A DNA stretch of 64,000 bases from Granulicoccus phenolivorans DSM 17626 = NBRC 107789 = JCM 15570 (GTDB lineage: Bacteria > Actinomycetota > Actinomycetes > Propionibacteriales > Propionibacteriaceae), in NCBI RefSeq assembly GCF_000423085.1, contig NZ_AUHH01000017.1, positions 232 through 64,231 on the forward strand. Reading direction: 5' to 3'. The position numbers were made by a program, and so were the translations under genes. The notes under the pieces are model-generated. The model was not told the DNA's origin. It ran no database searches and saw nothing but the letters and a program-made list of their open reading frames with translations. The first letter of the stretch is position 1; every line of letters starts with the position of its first letter. This document shows positions 4,459 to 63,607 of the stretch, piece by piece.

Positions 4459-7400
4459 TGCCCCGCCGTACTGATCTGAAGTCGATCCTGGTGATCGGCT
4501 CGGGCCCGATCGTGATCGGCCAGGCCTGCGAGTTCGACTACTCCGGCACCCAGGCCTGTCGCGTGCTCCGCGAGGAGGGCTTCCGGGTCGTCCTGGTCAA
4601 CTCCAATCCGGCCACCATCATGACCGACCCGGACATGGCCGACGCCACCTACGTCGAGCCGATCACGCCGGAGTTCGTGGAGAAGGTCATCGCCAAGGAG
4701 CGCCCGGACGCGCTGCTGGCCACCCTGGGCGGGCAGACCGCCCTGAACACCGCGGTACGCCTGCACGAGGCGGGCATCCTGGAGAAGTACGGGGTCGAGC
4801 TGATCGGCGCCTCGATCGAAGCGATCCAGCGCGGGGAGAACCGGGAGGAGTTCAAGGAGATCGTCACCGGCCTGGACGTGCCCGGCGGTCCCGGGGAGGT
4901 CGCCCGCTCGGTGATCTGCCACAGCATGGACGAGGTGCTGGCCGCGGCCGATCAGCTCGGCTACCCGGTCGTGGTCCGGCCCAGCTTCACCATGGGCGGG
5001 GTCGGCTCCGGCTTCGCGCACACCGAGGAACAGCTGCGCACCATCGCGGGGACCGGCCTGGCCGCCTCCCCGGTCACCGAGGTGCTGATCGAGGAGTCGA
5101 TCATGGGCTGGAAGGAATACGAGCTCGAGGTGATGCGCGACGGCGCCGACAACGTCGTCGTGGTCTGCTCGATCGAGAACTTCGACCCGATGGGCATCCA
5201 CACCGGCGACTCGATCACCGTCGCCCCGACGATGACGCTGACCGACCGGGAGTACCAGCGGATGCGCGATGTCGGCATCGGCATCATCCGGGCGGTCGGG
5301 GTCGAATCCGGTGGCTGCAATATCCAGTTCGCGATCAACCCGGCCGACGGCCGGATGATCGTGATCGAGATGAACCCGCGGGTCTCCCGGTCCTCGGCGC
5401 TGGCCTCCAAGGCGACCGGTTTCCCGATCGCCAAGATCGCCGCGAAGGTCGCCATCGGCTACACCCTCGACGAGATCCCCAACGACATCACCGGGGAGAC
5501 CCCGGCCAGCTTCGAACCGTCACTGGACTACGTGATCGTTAAGGTGCCCCGGTTCGCCTTCGAGAAGTTCCCGACCGCCGACACCACGCTGACCACGCAC
5601 ATGAAGTCGGTCGGCGAGGCGATGGCGATCGGTCGCAACTTCGGCGAGGCCCTGGGCAAGGCGCTGCGCTCGATGGAGGACCCGCTGGCGCGCTACAACT
5701 ATGCCGCCACCCCGACGACGTCGAAGGCGGAGCTGCTGCGGATCGCACAGACCCCGACCGACGGCCGGATCCAGACCGTGTTCGCCGCGTTCAGCGCCGG
5801 TGCCGGCGTCGAGGAGGTCTTCGAGGCCACCAAGATCGATCCCTGGTTCCTCGCCGAGATCGCCGCCCTGGTCGACCTGGCCGCGGAGGTCAAGCAGGCC
5901 GGCGGGATCAGCGCCGAGCTGCTCCGCGAGGCCAAGCAGAACGGCTTCTCCGACCTGCAGATCGCGCAGCTGCGGGGGCGGACCGAGTCCGAGGTCCGCG
6001 CGATGCGGCACGAGCTCGGGATCCGCCCGGTGTACAAGACCGTCGACACCTGTGCCGCCGAGTTCGCCGCCCGGACGCCCTACCACTACTCCTCCTACGA
6101 CGAGGAGACCGAGGTCGCCACCCGGACCAAGCCGGCGGTGATCATCCTGGGCAGCGGCCCCAACCGGATCGGGCAGGGGATCGAGTTCGACTACTCCTGC
6201 GTGCATGCCTCGATGGCGCTGCGCGAGGCCGGGTACGAGACGGTGATGGTCAACTGCAACCCCGAGACCGTCTCGACCGACTACGACACCTCCGACCGGC
6301 TCTACTTCGAACCGCTCACCCTGGAGGACGTGCTGGAGGTGGTGCACGCCGAACGGCAGGCCGGCCCGGTGGCCGGGGTGATCGTCCAACTGGGCGGGCA
6401 GACCCCGTTGCGGCTGGCCCAGGCGCTGAAGGATGCCGGGGTCCCGATCGTGGGCACCTCCCCGGAGGCGATCAACGCCGCCGAGGAACGCGGCGCCTTC
6501 GGTGCGGTCCTGGAGGCCGCCGACCTGCCCTCGCCGAAGCACGGGATGGCGTACTCGGTGGCCGATGCCCGCGAGATCGCCGCCGAGATCGGCTACCCGG
6601 TGCTGGTGCGTCCCTCCTACGTGCTGGGCGGGCGCGGGATGGAGATCGTCTACGACCAGACCTCGCTGGACTCCTACATCTCCCGGGCCACCGAGATCAC
6701 CCCGGAGCACCCGGTGCTGGTCGACCGGTTCCTCGATGACGCGATCGAGATCGACGTGGACGCCCTGTACGACGGCACCGACCTCTACCTCGGCGGGATC
6801 ATGGAGCACATCGAGGAGGCCGGGGTGCACTCCGGGGACTCCGCCTGTGCGCTGCCCCCGATCACCCTCGGCGCGGCGGTGATCGACCGGATCCGCACCT
6901 CCACCCGCGCGATCGCCGCGGGGGTGGGCGTACACGGGCTGCTGAACATTCAGTACGCCCTGGCCGCCGACACCCTGTACGTGCTGGAGGCCAACCCCCG
7001 CGCCTCGCGGACCGTCCCGTTCGTGTCCAAGGCGACCGCGACCCAGCTGGCCAAGGCTGCCTCGCGGATCATGCTCGGCGAGACGATCGCCGAGCTGCGG
7101 GCCGACGGGACGCTGCGCCGGGAGGTGGACGGGGCCTACGTGACCGACGCCTCGCCGACCGCGGTCAAGGAAGCAGTGATGCCGTTCAACCGGTTCCGGA
7201 CCACCGAAGGACGCCCGGTCGACACCCTGCTCGGCCCGGAGATGAAGTCGACCGGTGAGGTGATGGGCATCGACGCGATGTTCGGGCCCGCCTTCGCCAA
7301 GTCCCAGCTGGGTGCCTCCAGCTGGCTGCCGACCACGGGCCGGGTGTTCATCTCCGCGGCCGACCGGCACAAGCGCAACATCGTGTTCCCGGTGAAGGCG

Positions 7401-11193: not shown

Positions 11194-12414
11194 ATGGCCC
11201 GGATCGTGCTCGGCGTCGCCGGCGGCATTGCGGCGTACAAGGCCTGTGAGTTGCTGCGGCTGATGACCAAGGCCGGGCACGATGTCACGGTGGTGCCGAC
11301 CGAGTCGGCACTCAACTTCGTCGGCCGGACCACCTGGGAGGCGCTGTCGGGACATCCGGTGAAGACCCAGGTGTTCGAGGGCGCCGATGAGGTGGCGCAT
11401 GTCCGCCTGGGCCAGCAGGCCGACCTGGTCGTGATCGCCCCGGCGACCGCGGATCTGATCGCCCGCGCGGCGACCGGCCGCGCCGACGACCTGCTCACCA
11501 ACGTGCTGCTGACCGCGCACTGTCCGGTCATGCTGGCCCCGGCGATGCACACCGAGATGTGGCTGCATGCCGCCACGCAGGCGAACGTGGCGACCCTGCG
11601 CGAGCGCGGAGTCATCGTGGTCGATCCCGACGACGGCCGACTCACCGGTCCCGATTCCGGCCCCGGCCGGCTGCCGGAGGCCGCGGATCTGTTCCCGAAC
11701 GTCGCCTCGCTGCTCGAATCGGAGACTGTCGCCGCCGCGGCGACCCGCCGCGACCTGGCCGGCCGGCATGTGGTCGTCTCGGCCGGCGGCACCCGGGAAC
11801 ATCTGGATCCGGTGCGCTACCTGGGCAACTCCTCCTCCGGCCTGATGGGCCTGTCGATCGCCCGGGCCGCGGCCCTGCGCGGGGCCCGGGTGACCGTGGT
11901 CGCCGCCCACATCGAGCATCCGGTCCCGGCCGGGGCCACCGTCCGCCCCGTGGTCAGCACCGCCGATCTGGCCGAGGCGATGACCGAGCTGGCACCCGAG
12001 GCCGATGTGATCGTGATGGCCGTGGCCGCTGCCGACTTCACCCCGCGTACCGCCAGCGCCGGGAAGATCAAGAAGGAATCGGCCGACGCCGGGCTGCAGC
12101 TGGATCTGGTCCAGACCACCGATGTGCTCAAGACGCTGTCGCACCGGCGCCCGCGGGAGCAGACCATCGTCGGCTTCGCCGCCGAGACCGCCACCGGGGA
12201 CGAACTGCTGCGGCTGGGGCAGGAGAAGCTGGCGCGCAAGGGCTGCGACCTGCTGGTCATCAACGACGTCTCCGGCGGGGGCGTGTTCGGGCAGGCCGAC
12301 AACGCCATCACCATCGTCTCCCCGGATGCCGTCATCGGTTCCTGGACCGGCAGCAAGGGCGCCCTGGCCCATCGCATCCTGGACGCAGCAGGGGCAGTTG
12401 GTTCCGCGGGCTAG
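11194..12414 (+). CDS. coaBC: Bifunctional phosphopantothenoylcysteine decarboxylase/phosphopantothenate-cysteine ligase
   Basis: CoA synthesis: the CoaB half joins cysteine to 4'-phosphopantothenate and the CoaC half decarboxylates the product. 406 aa, the normal fused length. N-terminal flavoprotein domain GVAGGIAAYKACELLR with the substrate-binding motif PAMHTEMW near residues 115-122 (the family usually has PxMNxxMW; here His replaces Asn). The CoaB domain starts near residue 190 at VVSAGGTREHLDPVRYLGN and contains AAADFTP and KIKKES. Start ATG 11194 lies 3 nt after rpoZ. Confidence 0.94.
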   Translation: MARIVLGVAGGIAAYKACELLRLMTKAGHDVTVVPTESALNFVGRTTWEALSGHPVKTQVFEGADEVAHVRLGQQADLVVIAPATADLIARAATGRADDLLTNVLLTAHCPVMLAPAMHTEMWLHAATQANVATLRERGVIVVDPDDGRLTGPDSGPGRLPEAADLFPNVASLLESETVAAAATRRDLAGRHVVVSAGGTREHLDPVRYLGNSSSGLMGLSIARAAALRGARVTVVAAHIEHPVPAGATVRPVVSTADLAEAMTELAPEADVIVMAVAAADFTPRTASAGKIKKESADAGLQLDLVQTTDVLKTLSHRRPREQTIVGFAAETATGDELLRLGQEKLARKGCDLLVINDVSGGGVFGQADNAITIVSPDAVIGSWTGSKGALAHRILDAAGAVGSAG

Positions 12415-50600: not shown

Positions 50601-51296
50601 CTACTCCGGGTTCCCCTCGGCGTTGTCGTCGACCCGGACCAGCCCGCTCCGGTAGGCCCATACCGCGATCTGGAGTCGGTCCCGCAGCTGCAGTTTGCTC
50701 AGCAGGCGGGACACGTAGGTCTTCACGGTGGCTTCACTGAGAAACAGTCGCTCCCCGATCTCGGCGTTGGACAGCCCCTGGGCGACCAGGCGGACCACGA
50801 CGGTCTCCCGCTCGGTCAGCCCGGCGAGTGCCGCCGACCGTGCCCCGGCCCGGGGGCGCGCGGTGAACCGGTCCAGCAGCCGGGTGATCAGCGCCGGCGC
50901 AAGCATCGACTCACCTCTGGCCACCACGCGTACGGCGTGCACCAGGTCATCGGGAGACACATCCTTCAGCAGGAAGCCCGAAGCACCGGCGCGAACGGCC
51001 TCGTACACATACTCATCCAGATCGAAGGTGGTCAGCACCAGCACCCTGGGTACCGGAGGCGGGAGTGCGCCGATCCGGCGGGTGGCTTCCACCCCGTCCA
51101 AGCGAGGCATCCGGATGTCCATCAGCACGACGTCGGGTCGCAGGTCCCCGACCACCTCGACTGCTTCGATACCATCGGCCGCCTCGCCGAGCACGGCCAG
51201 GCCGGCCCGCTCGAGAATCAGCCGGAAGCCGATCCGAACCAGCTCCTGATCATCGACGACCACCACCGAAGTCCGGGGCCGGGCCGGGTCGGTCAT
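50601..51296 (-). CDS. NarL/LuxR-family response regulator
   Basis: 231 aa. Receiver domain with acidic pair DDQE and phosphoacceptor Asp60 (VVLMDIRMP), Thr in LTTFD and Lys in FLLKDVSP; C-terminal LuxR helix-turn-helix from about residue 155 (LTERETVVVRLVAQGLSNAEI, VKTYVSRLLSKL). Start overlaps the kinase stop by 4 nt. Target genes cannot be inferred; the flavoprotein gene downstream is a candidate. Confidence 0.93.
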   Translation of the reverse strand: MTDPARPRTSVVVVDDQELVRIGFRLILERAGLAVLGEAADGIEAVEVVGDLRPDVVLMDIRMPRLDGVEATRRIGALPPPVPRVLVLTTFDLDEYVYEAVRAGASGFLLKDVSPDDLVHAVRVVARGESMLAPALITRLLDRFTARPRAGARSAALAGLTERETVVVRLVAQGLSNAEIGERLFLSEATVKTYVSRLLSKLQLRDRLQIAVWAYRSGLVRVDDNAEGNPE

Positions 51297-52489
51297 GTCG
51301 GTTCCAGCGGTAGGGCGGCCCGGACGGTGAACCCGGCGTCGGTGGCTGCGATGTCGAGGTCGCCATCGAACAGTTCGACCCGCTCGCGCATGCCGAGCAG
51401 CCCGTGGCCCGGCTTCTCGGTGTCGGGCCGCGCCGGGCCGGGGTCGGAGATCTCGACCAGGAGTTGGGTTGCCCCGAAGTCGAGGTGGACGCGGGCCCGG
51501 GTTGCCTCGGAGTGGCGGCGTACGTTGGTCAGGGCCTCCTGCACGATCCGGTACACCGTCAGGTCCAGCCCTGCCGGCAGGTCACACGGGGCGCCGGTCA
51601 GGTCGAGCACGACCGCCAGCCCGGCCTTGCGGGCCGAGGCAAGCAGATCCGGGAGCGCGGCGATCCCGGGCATCGGGGCCAGATCTCCCTCCCGTTCCGG
51701 ATCGCGCAGCACGCCCACCAGACGGCGCATCTCGGTCAGCGCGCCACTGCCGGTGGTACGGATGGTGGACAGGGCCCGCCGGGCGAACTCGGGATCGTCC
51801 TCGACCACCTGTTCCGCGGCGCCGGCCTGCACCACGATCGTCCCGACCGAGTGCGCCACGATGTCGTGGAGTTCGCGCGCGATCCGAGCCCGCTCGTCGG
51901 CAATTGCCGCCAGGGCCTGCTCGCGCGCGGCGGCCTCGGCCACATGTGCCCGGACTGCCTCCTCAGCGGCGCGGTCCTCGAAGACGCGGAGTCCGCGCCC
52001 GACCAGCCAGACCAGAATCAGGAACGCCCAGTGGAACACCACCTCGTTGGGCGACTGCAGCAGTTCCATGGTGAGATCACCCAGGACGACCGTCGCGGCC
52101 GAGGCCACCGTACCGAGCCAGAGGTAGCGCCCTCGGCCATGCCGCGCAATCGTGAACACGAGCACCAGCAGCGGCACCATTTGCCCGAAGAACAGCAGCG
52201 AGAGATTCCCCGGCCCGACCACCATGCCCAGCACCGGCCACACGGCCAGTCCCCCCAACGCCCACCACCGACGGGCTCGGCGTACCGCGATGAACCCGGC
52301 GAAGGCCACTACAGCCACGCTGCCCAATACCGGAGAACCGTCACCCTGGACCGATTCCATCGGCAGCCAGATCTCGACCAGGCCCACGGCGGCCAGCAGC
52401 ACCGCGATTGCGATGTCCACCGCCCACTGGCGCCCGCTCAGCCGCTGCACGCCTTCAATGTAGCCCGCGGCCCCCGCCGGCGTCGTCAT
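51293..52489 (-). CDS. Sensor histidine kinase (DesK/NarL-type)
   Basis: 398 aa. About six hydrophobic segments in residues 20-160 without a large extracellular domain, a short helix, then HisKA_3 with phosphoacceptor His around residue 207 (ARELHDIVAHSVGTIVVQAG) and a HATPase domain ending GHGLLGMRERVELFDGDL. Members of this type sense membrane or envelope state. Paired with the response regulator by a 4-nt overlap. ATG 52489 is assumed; an internal GTG near residue 14 is possible. Confidence 0.9.
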   Translation of the reverse strand: MTTPAGAAGYIEGVQRLSGRQWAVDIAIAVLLAAVGLVEIWLPMESVQGDGSPVLGSVAVVAFAGFIAVRRARRWWALGGLAVWPVLGMVVGPGNLSLLFFGQMVPLLVLVFTIARHGRGRYLWLGTVASAATVVLGDLTMELLQSPNEVVFHWAFLILVWLVGRGLRVFEDRAAEEAVRAHVAEAAAREQALAAIADERARIARELHDIVAHSVGTIVVQAGAAEQVVEDDPEFARRALSTIRTTGSGALTEMRRLVGVLRDPEREGDLAPMPGIAALPDLLASARKAGLAVVLDLTGAPCDLPAGLDLTVYRIVQEALTNVRRHSEATRARVHLDFGATQLLVEISDPGPARPDTEKPGHGLLGMRERVELFDGDLDIAATDAGFTVRAALPLEPT

Positions 52490-59978: not shown

Positions 59979-59994
59979 GGTGACCGAGGTCACC
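59979..59994. promoter_or_regulatory. Perfect palindrome GGTGACC-2-GGTCACC
   Basis: Seven-bp arms with 2-bp spacer between the divergent flavodoxin and monooxygenase genes; a likely dimer-binding operator. The regulator is unknown. Confidence 0.4.
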
Positions 59995-60041: not shown

Positions 60042-60057
60042 GTCGCCCCGTGACGAC
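60042..60057 (+). promoter_or_regulatory. Response-regulator site S1 (monooxygenase promoter)
   Basis: GTCGCCCCGTGACGAC, ending exactly 22 nt before the -10 box TAGCGT (60080-60085) of the FAD monooxygenase gene. Same sequence pattern and spacing as S2 and S3. Confidence 0.6.
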
Positions 60058-60110
60058 GGCGCGTGCCGGCCGGCCCGCCTAGCGTGGGCAGCAGCGAGAA
60101 GGGGCACCCC

Positions 60111-61169
60111 ATGCAAGGACATGCAACCATCATCGGCGCCGGGATCGCCGGCCTGGCCACAGCCATTGCGCTGCGCCGCACTGGCTGGACGGTCACCATC
60201 CGGGAGCGCGCACTGGCAATCTCGGCCGGCGGAAACGCACTGGGTATGTGGCCGGCCGCGATGACGGCACTCGATGCGCTGGATCTGGGGGATCGCGTCC
60301 GCGCTCACGCGGTGTACGCAGCCGGAGAACGGATCCTCACTCCCGAGGGTGCTCTGCAGTCCCACATCCCACCCAGCCGGCACGTCTACCTGATTTCGCG
60401 CCGGCGCCTGTTGGAAGTCCTCTACGACGCGGTCCCCGAGGGCTTGATCGCATGGGGAACTCCGCTGCGTCCCGGCGAGGATCTGCCGCCCGGCGACATC
60501 ATCGTCGGCGCCGACGGGATCCACAGTGTCGTCCGGGAACGGCACTGGGGCACGACCACGGAACGATCGCTGGGCACGGTGGCCCTTCGCGGCGATATCT
60601 CCGGGGAGGTCAGCGGCGTGACCGAGACCTGGGGCCGGGGTGCGATGTTCGGGGTCACGCCGACCAGCGACCGACGGACCAACTGGTTCGCCTGTGTTCG
60701 CCCCGGTGTGCTTACTGCTACCGGGGACGGCGTCGCTGCGGACCTGCGAGAGCATTTCGGAACCTGGCATCCTGCGGTCTCGGCGGTGGTGCACCGGATC
60801 ACCGACCAGGACGTGGATGCCCGCGACCTGTTCGATGTGCGCCACCGTGGTTCGTACGCCAAGGGACGGGTCGTGCTGATCGGTGACGCGGCGCATGCGA
60901 TGGCACCGGACCTGGGCCGGGGCGCCTGCGAAGCACTGGTCGATGCGCTCACCCTGGCCGAGCAGCTCTCCGGCGCCGATACTCCCGCGCCGGCGTTACG
61001 GCAGTTCGATCACCTCCGACGGCATCGCACTCAGCGCTACGTCGCGATCTCCCGGATGCTCAACCGCCTCTCGACCGGGACCCGGGGGATCCACGTCCGC
61101 ACGGCACTGCTCGCGCTGCTGCCCAGCGCGGGATCGGCTGCCCAGCGGACCGAGCCCGTCCGAAGCTGA
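60111..61169 (+). CDS. FAD-dependent monooxygenase (group A, PHBH-like)
   Basis: 352 aa. FAD motif IIGAGIAGLATAIALRRTGW, the DG motif IIVGADGIHSVVR near residue 145, and the GD motif LIGDAAHAMAPDLGRGACEALVDA near residue 260: all three signatures of aromatic-ring hydroxylase-type flavoproteins. ATG 60111 follows GAGAAGGGG. Its promoter carries site S1, linking it to the neighbouring two-component system. Substrate unknown. Confidence 0.88.
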   Translation: MQGHATIIGAGIAGLATAIALRRTGWTVTIRERALAISAGGNALGMWPAAMTALDALDLGDRVRAHAVYAAGERILTPEGALQSHIPPSRHVYLISRRRLLEVLYDAVPEGLIAWGTPLRPGEDLPPGDIIVGADGIHSVVRERHWGTTTERSLGTVALRGDISGEVSGVTETWGRGAMFGVTPTSDRRTNWFACVRPGVLTATGDGVAADLREHFGTWHPAVSAVVHRITDQDVDARDLFDVRHRGSYAKGRVVLIGDAAHAMAPDLGRGACEALVDALTLAEQLSGADTPAPALRQFDHLRRHRTQRYVAISRMLNRLSTGTRGIHVRTALLALLPSAGSAAQRTEPVRS

Positions 61170-61191
61170 CCGTGGACCGTCCCGGCGGAAA

Positions 61192-61207
61192 GTCGCCCCC
61201 GGGCGAC
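61192..61207 (+). promoter_or_regulatory. Response-regulator site S2 (two-component promoter)
   Basis: GTCGCCCCCGGGCGAC, a near-perfect palindrome within AGTCGCCCCCGGGCGACT. It ends 22 nt before the -10 box TACGAT (61230-61235), which lies 6 nt before the kinase ATG (leaderless). This predicts autoregulation. Confidence 0.65.
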
Positions 61208-61241
61208 TGCCGGGCCCAGCTCGCCGACCTACGATGGCAGC

Positions 61242-62390
61242 ATGATCGAGGACGATCGCAGTCGGCTCCCGGCTCCCTCGTGGTTCGACGCGCTGTTGGG
61301 GCTGATGGTCACTGTCGTGGTGTCCCTGTTCATCGCCGCGGATATCGGGGACGGCACCGCCGACGGCTGGGCCTACCTGTGGGCGGTCGGGCTCGGCGGC
61401 CTCATGCTGGTCCGGCGTCGGTACCCGGTGTTGGTGGTCATCCTCTCGGCGGTGGCGGTGATCGCGTACCACGCTCTCGGTTACCCGCCGATCGGAATCG
61501 CCGTCCCGCTGGCGACGGCGGTCTTCTCCGCCGCTGAGGCTGGTCGCGCTCCCGTAGCGGTCATCGTCGCGGCGAGCGTGGTCATCGTCTCGGTGTCGTA
61601 TCGGCTGCTCGTGGGCCAGAATCCCGCCTTCGTGCTGGCGTACGAGTTGCCCGGGACCGCCCTGCTGCTCGGCGGGGCGATCGTGCTCGGCGACAGCGTA
61701 CGATCCCGGCGTGAGTTGCGGCGGCGATCGGAGCAGATCGCCGAGCTGGTCCGCGCGCAGGTGTCCCGGGAAGCCGAACAGCGCCTGTTGGGGGAGCGCC
61801 TGGGGATCGCCCGGGAACTGCATGATTCGGTCGGGCACGCCCTGACCGTGGTCAATCTGAACACCCAACTGCTGGAGGAGGCGCTGCAGGACAGCTCCGA
61901 TCCCGCGGTGCAGCGGTCGCTGGCAGCGATCGCACGGACCACGGCGGCGACCTTCGCGGACCTGCGCCGCACCGTCGCCAGCCTGCGTCGCGAGGATCCC
62001 GGCGGTACACCGCTCGGGTTGGCAGACCTGGCGAGCGCCACCCAGCCGGCCGAGCAGAACGGACTTGCCGTGCACACCAGCGTGACGGTGCGTTCGGCCC
62101 TGTCGGCGACCCTCGAGAACGCCATCTTCCGGATCGTCCAAGAGGCGATCAACAATGTCGTCCGCCACGCCGATGCCTCCCGCGTCGAGGTGGTGGTGGC
62201 CGAGACCGACCAGGAGGTCAGCGTGCGGATCAGCGACGACGGCAGGGGGAATCCCGAGCAGATCAAACCCGGCGCCGGAATCGCCGGGATGGCCGAACGG
62301 ACGCAGTTACTGGGGGGCCGCTTCACCGCGGCCGGCGGGGATCACGGCTTCACCGTCTGCGCTGCGTTTCCCCGGGAGGTGGCGAGGTGA
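61242..62390 (+). CDS. Sensor histidine kinase (DesK/NarL-type)
   Basis: 382 aa. About four to five hydrophobic segments (residues 15-150), a short coiled linker (REAEQRLLGERLG), HisKA_3 with phosphoacceptor His194 in ARELHDSVGHALTVVNL, and a HATPase domain with ISDDGRGNP and GAGIAGMAERTQLLGG. No extracellular sensor domain. Leaderless start at ATG 61242. Overlaps the response regulator by 4 nt. Confidence 0.92.
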   Translation: MIEDDRSRLPAPSWFDALLGLMVTVVVSLFIAADIGDGTADGWAYLWAVGLGGLMLVRRRYPVLVVILSAVAVIAYHALGYPPIGIAVPLATAVFSAAEAGRAPVAVIVAASVVIVSVSYRLLVGQNPAFVLAYELPGTALLLGGAIVLGDSVRSRRELRRRSEQIAELVRAQVSREAEQRLLGERLGIARELHDSVGHALTVVNLNTQLLEEALQDSSDPAVQRSLAAIARTTAATFADLRRTVASLRREDPGGTPLGLADLASATQPAEQNGLAVHTSVTVRSALSATLENAIFRIVQEAINNVVRHADASRVEVVVAETDQEVSVRISDDGRGNPEQIKPGAGIAGMAERTQLLGGRFTAAGGDHGFTVCAAFPREVAR

Positions 62391-63040
62391 CCACAGTCAT
62401 TCTGGTCGATGATCAGGACCTGGTCCGGGAGGGCCTGCGGGCCCTGCTCACCCGCGACGAAGCGATCCGGGTGGTCGCCGAGGCCGCTGACGGGCGCCGC
62501 GGCGTGGACGCGGTCCGACGCTACCGGCCGGATGTGGTCCTGATGGATCTGCGCATGCCGGTGCTGGACGGGATCGCCGCCACCGCGGAGATCACGGCGG
62601 ATCCCGCCCTGGTCGGCACAGCAGTGGTCGTCCTGACCACCTTCGACGAGGACGGCGACATCGTGTCGGCGTTGCAGGCCGGGGCGGTCGGCTACCTGTT
62701 GAAGAGTTCGACCCGCGACGATCTGCGCCAAGCGGTTGTCCGTGCCGGAGCCGGGGAACGGCTGCTGTCGCCCAGCGTCCTGGCGCAACTGATGGATCTG
62801 GTTGCCGGCGGGTCCGCGGCGCCGGTTCCCGACCCCCGGCTGGCTCTGTTGAGCGAGCGCGAGCTCGAGGTGCTCACCCGGGTCGGTCAGGGGGACACCA
62901 ACGCCGAGATAGCTGCCACGCTCTTCCTGAGCCCGGCCACGGCGCGAACCTATGTCAGCCGCATCCTGGCCAAACTCGGCGCCCGGGATCGGCCGGAACT
63001 GCTGGTGATCGCCCATCGCTCCGGGCTGGTACCGCCTTAA
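62387..63040 (+). CDS. NarL/LuxR-family response regulator
   Basis: 217 aa. Receiver: acidic DDQD, phosphoacceptor Asp54 (VVLMDLRMP), LTTFDED, Lys in YLLKSSTRDD. LuxR-type helix-turn-helix from about residue 150: LSERELEVLTRVGQGDTNAEI and ARTYVSRILAKLGA. It probably binds sites S1-S3, which lie at the promoters of its own operon and both neighbouring genes. It is cognate to the kinase by 4-nt overlap. Confidence 0.93.
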   Translation: MTTVILVDDQDLVREGLRALLTRDEAIRVVAEAADGRRGVDAVRRYRPDVVLMDLRMPVLDGIAATAEITADPALVGTAVVVLTTFDEDGDIVSALQAGAVGYLLKSSTRDDLRQAVVRAGAGERLLSPSVLAQLMDLVAGGSAAPVPDPRLALLSERELEVLTRVGQGDTNAEIAATLFLSPATARTYVSRILAKLGARDRPELLVIAHRSGLVPP

Positions 63041-63085
63041 TGTCGTCCGATGTTCGCTCCGAGGTCGCCCCGGGGCGTTCGCCCT

Positions 63086-63102
63086 GTCGCCTTCGGGGTG
63101 AC
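63086..63102 (+). promoter_or_regulatory. Response-regulator site S3 (membrane protein promoter) and hairpin
   Basis: GTCGCCTTCGGGGTGAC, ending 22 nt before the -10 box TACCGT (63125-63130). It lies in a larger inverted repeat GCCCTGTC/GACAGGGC (63081-63107) that could also help terminate the upstream operon, though the T-run (63118-63122) is 10 nt away. A related GTCGCCCCGGGGCG is at 63064-63077. Confidence 0.55.
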
Positions 63103-63136
63103 AGGGCCCGGAGTCGGATTTTTCTACCGTGGTGGC

Positions 63137-63607
63137 ATGACTTCAACCACTGAATCCTCCGCCACGCCCACGCAGAAGCGGCCCGGGCTCGGGCTGCCGT
63201 TCCTGGCCCTGATCGGACTTGCGGCGCTCGGCCTGCCCCGGGTGATCCTGCATGACCTCCACCTCATTCCCGAGTTCGGGCCGATCACCTGGGTGCTGGC
63301 CCTCGCGCCGGTCGCGATTTGGATCGTGGTCGCCGTGGCGGCCAAGGTCCCGAACGCCTTCGTCACCGTGCTGGTCATCGGCGTGATCTTTGCCGTGCTG
63401 CTCGTGGCGACCCACCAGATCCTGTGGACCCAGGCCTTCGCCGCGCAAGGCCTACCCACCGTCGGCACCGGCGCCGCGGCTACCGTGATTCCGCGCTTGG
63501 CGGCGATCCCGAGCGGCTTGATCACCGGCACCCTGATCGGGGTGATTGGCGGACTGGTCGCCTGGGGCACCCAGGCACTGACCCGGCGGATCGCCGCGAA
63601 ACGCTGA
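63137..63607 (+). CDS. Small membrane protein, likely target of the adjacent two-component system
   Basis: 156 aa with about four hydrophobic segments (LGLPFLALIGLAALGLP, WVLALAPVAIWIVVAVA, FVTVLVIGVIFAVLLVA, SGLITGTLIGVIGGLVAWG). No family recognised. ATG 63137 is 6 nt after TACCGT (leaderless). Site S3 upstream suggests it belongs to the regulon of the response regulator just before it. Confidence 0.72.
   Translation: MTSTTESSATPTQKRPGLGLPFLALIGLAALGLPRVILHDLHLIPEFGPITWVLALAPVAIWIVVAVAAKVPNAFVTVLVIGVIFAVLLVATHQILWTQAFAAQGLPTVGTGAAATVIPRLAAIPSGLITGTLIGVIGGLVAWGTQALTRRIAAKR

Follow-up and report, generated by a model that had tools for sequence, protein, structure and literature searches.

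Three promoters in a 64-kb stretch of the Granulicoccus phenolivorans DSM 17626 genome (contig NZ_AUHH01000017.1; the whole stretch is referred to here as the window, and its genome comprises 4,117,723 bases) carry a GTCGCC dyad, designated S1, S2 and S3 (Table 1), at one and the same distance from a -10 box. They precede, respectively, a gene for a flavin adenine dinucleotide (FAD)-dependent monooxygenase, an overlapping gene pair for a sensor histidine kinase and a NarL-type response regulator, and a gene for a small helical membrane protein, here called MP. Taken together, the results point to a NarL-type two-component system that probably activates its own operon, along with a regulon of oxidative enzymes and membrane proteins, from a class II position, a reading to which we attach a probability of roughly 0.83. 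The sites, their fixed spacing, their conservation, the tandem phasing, the leaderless -10 boxes and the gene content all come directly from the computation.

In the mechanism that we propose, the membrane kinase would phosphorylate the NarL-type regulator, a dimer of which would bind the palindrome GTCGCC-N4/5-GGCGAC, centred ~42.5 nucleotides (nt) before the transcription start and thus at the -35 place, and would recruit RNA polymerase to a -10 box of the form TAnnnT (class II activation). The genes switched on in this way would be the system's own operon (from S2), the monooxygenase gene (from S1) and the MP gene (from S3). At S3, as at most MP and multicopper oxidase promoters of relatives, a second dimer would bind cooperatively 22 base pairs (bp), or about two helical turns, further upstream. 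In relatives, the predicted regulon adds a CueO-like multicopper oxidase, one Dyp-type peroxidase, some S41 peptidases and X, a paralogue of MP.

Site geometry in the window

The three sites had been put forward in an original prediction made from the letters of the window, and both their positions and their letters were found as described there, as was the gap of exactly 22 nt that separates the end of the site from TAGCGT, TACGAT and TACCGT at S1, S2 and S3 alike. We scanned for the dyad alone (GTCGYC-N4/5-GRYGAC) and for its combination with spacing and -10 box (GTCGYC-N4/5-GRYGAC-N21..23-TANNNT, the strict pattern). The strict pattern has three matches in the window, which are exactly S1-S3, and none in 100 dinucleotide-preserving shuffles; genome-wide it matches at the same three places only, all confined to 3.1 kb, with the reverse-read control giving 0. 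The dyad alone matches eight times in the window (a palindrome counting once per strand), where 1.43 matches would be expected, and S1 with up to three mismatches finds 64 matches in the whole genome against 245 for the reverse-read control. The dyad is thus common while the combined pattern is unique, and it is therefore the combination of dyad, spacing and -10 box that is distinctive, the dyad by itself being less special.

Assuming that transcription starts 7 nt past the -10 box, the dyads are centred at -42.5 (S1, with +1 at 60092), -42.5 (S2) and -43.0 (S3), and for S2 and S3 this start falls on the ATG. Class II activator sites have their centre near -41.5 to -42.5. The hexamers found at the -35 place, 17 nt above the -10 box, are CGGCGC (S1), CTGCCG (S2) and CAGGGC (S3); none of these is -35-like, and the promoters therefore look activator-dependent. 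Prediction of sigma-70-type promoters called none at S1-S3. Because the -10 box ends 6 nt before the ATG, the S2 and S3 transcripts would be leaderless if the predicted -10 boxes are correct; at S1 the 25-nt interval between -10 box and ATG includes a purine-rich stretch.

S3 stands out within the window in having two GTCGCC copies, 22 nt apart. At S2 there is no GTCG 60-63 nt above the -10 box, and none was seen at S1. The original prediction, right about the three sites, had missed this second copy, just as it had missed the 23-nt spacing seen in several relatives and the larger regulon described below.

Two other palindromes were seen in the window. A perfect one, GTCGCCGCCGCGGCGAC, lies at 11728-11744 and has no -10 box at the right distance. 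The other, GGTGACC/GGTCACC at 59979-59994, is intergenic between a divergent flavodoxin-like gene and the monooxygenase gene and is possibly the site of another regulator.

Conservation in relatives

Fifteen close loci were compared, namely the window, L063-L066, L152 and L211-L219 (L225 repeats L065 and was excluded). A promoter was recognised by TAnnnT 4-8 nt before the start, and GTCG was scored as proximal at 38-41 nt and as distal at 60-63 nt before the -10 box. Such a promoter was present at 44 of 47 kinase, MP, X, multicopper oxidase and detached regulator genes, the other three having no TAnnnT at leaderless distance; the multicopper oxidase of G028, the genome nearest to the window's within the same family, stands outside this count owing to an alignment-start filter. 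Mechanically chosen open reading frames (ORFs) from the same loci served as controls. Proximal GTCG was found at 32 of the 44 module promoters and at 0 of 38 control ORF promoters (Fisher 3.6e-13), and distal GTCG at 28 of 44 and 1 of 38, respectively (Fisher 1.4e-9), but the loci share ancestry, so that these values are too small and overstate the evidence. The independent part of the conservation evidence is the presence of several different genes in one genome under one rule.

A count of GTCGYY, with one alternative -10 box of the window's MP gene and one duplicate row dropped, found the motif in 25 of 37 close promoters, compared with 0.45 on average after shuffling (maximum 4, 500 shuffles). 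A wider control set yielded a single match in 104, and that one was the G028 multicopper oxidase, itself a member of the module. Kinases of this type outside the module had the site in 0 of 16 promoters.

In G028, the kinase gene is preceded by GTCGTCCCCAGGCGAC, 22 nt and TAGCAT, the regulator gene by GTCGCCCTCGGACGAC, 22 nt and TAGCAT, and the MP gene by GTCGCCTCCGGAGGAC, 22 nt and TACGGT. Another gene, a multicopper oxidase gene with a site at the same 22-nt spacing, is inserted here between those for kinase and regulator, and the regulator gene thus separated has its own copy of the site. In a Microbacterium metagenome-assembled genome (MAG; L065) and an Intrasporangiaceae MAG (L066), the kinase gene has a spacing of 23 nt and the MP gene one of 22 nt. 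The closest kinase orthologues are those of G028 (59% identical) and of three Microbacterium records and one Intrasporangiaceae MAG (54-61%). MP is rare: it was matched in 20 of 293 genomes at the level of the order, in 16 of 247 from the Microbacterium genus, with 13 of these matches being strong, and in 25 of 394 at the level of the class. It commonly lies beside a kinase/regulator pair of this type.

At a further locus, L145 (G297:C2:22610-22652), a site, 21 nt, TAGCAT and a leaderless start are followed by an ORF of 467 amino acids (aa) that may, judged by eye, be helicase-like; this site is perhaps due to chance.

The predicted regulon gene by gene

Looking for the motif with its spacing at orthologous promoters, a check suggested along with the original prediction, came out in favour of the class-II-like activator site and autoregulated module foreseen there, both of which remain predictions. 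Among kinase promoters, proximal GTCG is present in 9 of 13 and distal GTCG in 0 of 13, with the site 22-23 nt before the -10 box. MP promoters have the proximal copy, likewise at 22-23 nt, in 14 of 14 cases and the distal copy, hence both, in 13. For the multicopper oxidase the figures are 8/10 proximal, 9/10 distal and 7/10 for both copies together. Gene X promoters with a leaderless -10 box have the distal copy (6/6) and no proximal GTCG (0/6), and the one detached regulator gene has a proximal copy (1/1) and no distal one (0/1).

The monooxygenase gene, alone or heading an operon, shows the geometry in five of seven loci (the window, L064, L215, L218 and L219); in L065 the palindrome is present with no TAnnnT at that distance, and in L217 it lies 46 nt above the -10 box. 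S41 peptidase genes show it in three of five loci (L064, L216 and L219). The Dyp-type peroxidase gene of G028 has GTCG at -39 and -61, while those of L212 and L217 lie behind the multicopper oxidase gene and have no site of their own.

Gene X lies just upstream of the MP gene in L066 (4541-4966) and occurs also in L211-L213, L215, L217 and L218. Its product is a further small membrane protein that shares 28% identity with the window's MP and has no Pfam family at E 0.001. The multicopper oxidase of relatives is CueO-like (404.1 and 375.7 bits, below the CueO equivalog cut-off of 525), its best solved match being 8r4h. It is absent from the window's genome, and the window thus holds a reduced regulon comprising the monooxygenase, the kinase/regulator pair and one membrane protein.

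Two observations concern the state of individual genes. In L063, at ~5850-5990, a remnant of the start of the monooxygenase gene stands just before the kinase gene, and the palindrome persists upstream of it. The regulator genes of L218 (4403-5046) and L221 (6265-6902) were each matched in two parts that overlap or abut and lie in different frames; they may be broken or reflect a sequencing error.

Genes of the module

The coordinates of the sites and genes are collected in Table 1.

Table 1 Predicted sites, -10 boxes and genes of the module (positions in the window)
Feature	Position	Strand	Description
S1, GTCGCCCCGTGACGAC	60042..60057	+	proximal predicted regulator site, monooxygenase promoter; same geometry at monooxygenase/operon in L064, L215, L218, L219
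-10 box TAGCGT	60080..60085	+	22 nt after S1; 25 nt before ATG
FAD-dependent monooxygenase gene	60111..61169	+	352 aa; FAD_binding_3, PRK06753/HpxO-like
S2, GTCGCCCCCGGGCGAC	61192..61207	+	proximal predicted regulator site, kinase/regulator operon; perfect palindrome
-10 box TACGAT	61230..61235	+	22 nt after S2; 6 nt before ATG, leaderless type
Sensor histidine kinase gene	61242..62390	+	382 aa; HisKA_3, HATPase_c; DUF7134-like N-terminus below cut-off
NarL-type response regulator gene	62387..63040	+	217 aa; Response_reg and GerE; overlaps kinase gene
Second, distal site, GTCGCCCCGGGGCG..	63064..63079	+	predicted; GTCGCC copy starting 22 nt upstream of S3
S3, GTCGCCTTCGGGGTGAC	63086..63102	+	proximal predicted regulator site, membrane-protein promoter
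-10 box TACCGT	63125..63130	+	22 nt after S3; 6 nt before ATG, leaderless type
Small helical membrane-protein gene MP	63137..63607	+	156 aa; no Pfam family at E 0.001

By its domains and key residues, the kinase/regulator pair is a predicted NarL-type two-component system. The kinase has HisKA_3 (E 1.7e-15) and HATPase_c (E 3.9e-10) domains, with the H-box ELHDSVGH in its translation, and the regulator has Response_reg (E 3.7e-27) and GerE (E 6.6e-16) domains, with the acceptor-aspartate stretch VVLMDLRMP; the nearest solved relatives of the latter are VraR, ChrA, NarL, DevR and DesR. On its minus strand, at 50637-52189, the window holds another kinase/regulator pair of this type, whose proteins are 34% and 50% identical to those of the module.

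The best NCBIfam models for the monooxygenase are PRK06753 and HpxO, both below cut-off: it reaches 147.1 of the 500 bits required for the urate hydroxylase HpxO and 50.4 of the 550 bits required for tetracycline destructase. The closest solved structure is 3rp8. MP belongs to no Pfam or NCBIfam family at E 0.001. Across the MP family no Pfam match is convincing; those up to E 1 are weak and unrelated, the best being DUF4235 (E 0.0082, in two of nine members). An AlphaFold2 model of MP built from six sequences consists of helices only and was judged too weak for a fold search (mean predicted local distance difference test score 66.8, predicted template-modelling score 0.54).

Weighing the interpretation

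Besides the shared ancestry of the loci, several observations weigh against control of these genes by the encoded system. In distant relatives few promoters have the site (proximal 3/32, distal 9/32), and the site is lacking at APH-type (0/7) and UbiB-type (0/4) neighbours. Within the Microbacterium genus, a scan of 36 genomes found the strict pattern at 11 places in nine of them, the control matching six times; module promoters account for five of the 11, and four occur among the 23 genomes that have no strong MP match. The pattern is therefore only weakly enriched in Microbacterium and is no reliable genome-wide finder there; in the window's genome its weight comes from the clustering of all three matches within 3.1 kb. 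Four of the 13 kinase promoters (L063, L064, L215 and L217) have no site. In each of these loci the monooxygenase gene or a remnant of it lies directly upstream of the kinase gene, which may be co-transcribed from the monooxygenase promoter.

Further counter-evidence concerns the protein that binds. This is probably the encoded regulator, whose recognition-helix stretch SPATARTYVSR is identical in 12 of the 13 site-bearing regulators for which it was printed, that of L218 reading SPSTARTYVSR. A paralogous regulator in the window's genome has the near-identical stretch SPATARTHVSR, and therefore another regulator could bind. Moreover, X and MP are present together with both kinds of site in the genome G321, which has no kinase match at E 1e-40 and whose best regulator is 50% identical; its largest contig covers 3.68 Mb out of ~4.0 Mb, so that a piece of this genome may be missing. 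These points favour real sites bound by another regulator, for example the paralogous NarL-type one, with the encoded pair as one of several inputs. We nevertheless think this unlikely: the only three matches in the genome all surround this pair, the regulator gene separated from its partner in G028 bears a site itself, and none stands before any of the 16 other kinase genes of this type.

Regulation by the encoded protein might also be negative or dual, with the regulator bound at -42 blocking the polymerase until a signal arrives. Position by itself is no proof of the sign of control, and the single sites at kinase promoters could fit autorepression. Against this, the site ends where a -35 element would begin, S1-S3 have no such element, and the spacing stays at 22-23 nt from gene to gene, a constancy that repression would not require; a repressor is accordingly improbable, and activation is the effect that the promoters suggest. 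That the dyads instead function at the RNA level, as intergenic terminators or attenuators, is very hard to sustain, even though S3 lies between the regulator and MP genes and with its flanks (63081-63107) forms a strong RNA hairpin (-26.4 kcal/mol, z -3.16). S1 and S2 fold no better than shuffles (z -0.61 and -0.93), terminator prediction was negative at all three sites, and the fixed distance to a leaderless -10 box and the upstream tandem copy would be left unexplained; we rejected this possibility because unusually strong folding is confined to S3, and even that site was not predicted to be a terminator. Coincidence in a GC-rich genome, already held unlikely in the original prediction, is scarcely credible. 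S1-like dyads are indeed common, if fewer than in the control, yet the combined pattern is absent from the shuffles and confined to these three places in the genome, and it recurs at related promoters; on these grounds chance was likewise rejected.

The reading that we prefer thus remains class II activation by the encoded NarL-type system, and the enzymes suggest a role in the oxidative handling of some, perhaps aromatic, compound. A more elaborate picture, which we offer tentatively and regard as rather doubtful, is that of a dedicated actinobacterial sensory defence regulon. Here the kinase would sense a toxic, probably phenolic or redox-active, compound and, through rigidly phased, mostly leaderless class II promoters with single or tandem 22-bp sites, call up a lipoprotein-like multicopper oxidase, a Dyp peroxidase, a cytosolic flavin monooxygenase and two small paralogous membrane proteins that would protect the membrane or exert feedback on the kinase.

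In practical terms, a strict geometric site rule derived from sequence alone predicts a regulon in Microbacterium and relatives that would comprise a laccase-like oxidase, a Dyp peroxidase, a flavin monooxygenase, an S41 peptidase and two small membrane proteins that belong to no known family. The rule itself (GTCG 39 and 61 nt above the -10 box, with a leaderless start) offers a clean model for NarL-type regulators at -35-less promoters in GC-rich bacteria, and it would link the uncharacterised MP family to one signalling pathway.

Comparison with known systems

The kind of system described here is already known; its motif and regulon were not found described. In keeping with the original prediction, which knew of no described system with this content, a search of open-access papers found no description of the palindrome, motif or gene set.

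DevR (DosR) of Mycobacterium tuberculosis is likewise a NarL-type regulator and, as is proposed here for the promoters with two sites, has a start-proximal site that overlaps the -35 element and a second, closely packed site that is bound cooperatively (PMC3029386); the DevR structure 3c3w is among the solved matches of the window's regulator (E 2.2e-26). Unlike the DevR system, that of the window and its relatives has other regulon genes and mostly leaderless promoters. The DevR box, positioned at about -42.5, is a different palindrome from the GTCGCC dyad.

ChrA (4yn8, E 4.3e-33) and DesR (4ldz, E 1.2e-25) are regulators of the same structural class, and their known targets, haem export and a fatty-acid desaturase, are not those found here. 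The multicopper oxidase of relatives invites comparison with CueO, which it resembles. It differs from copper-responsive control of CueO in its NarL-type site, in a score below the equivalog cut-off and in the absence of the gene from the window's genome.

The closest solved relative of the window's regulator is VraR (5hev, E 4.4e-40). A likeness to the VraR/LiaR envelope-stress systems lies in the membrane kinase, which lacks a large sensor domain, and in the small membrane proteins of the regulon. No LiaF homologue was recognised, MP and X matching no Pfam family at the threshold given above, and, unlike LiaFSR, the system described here has oxidative enzymes in its regulon.

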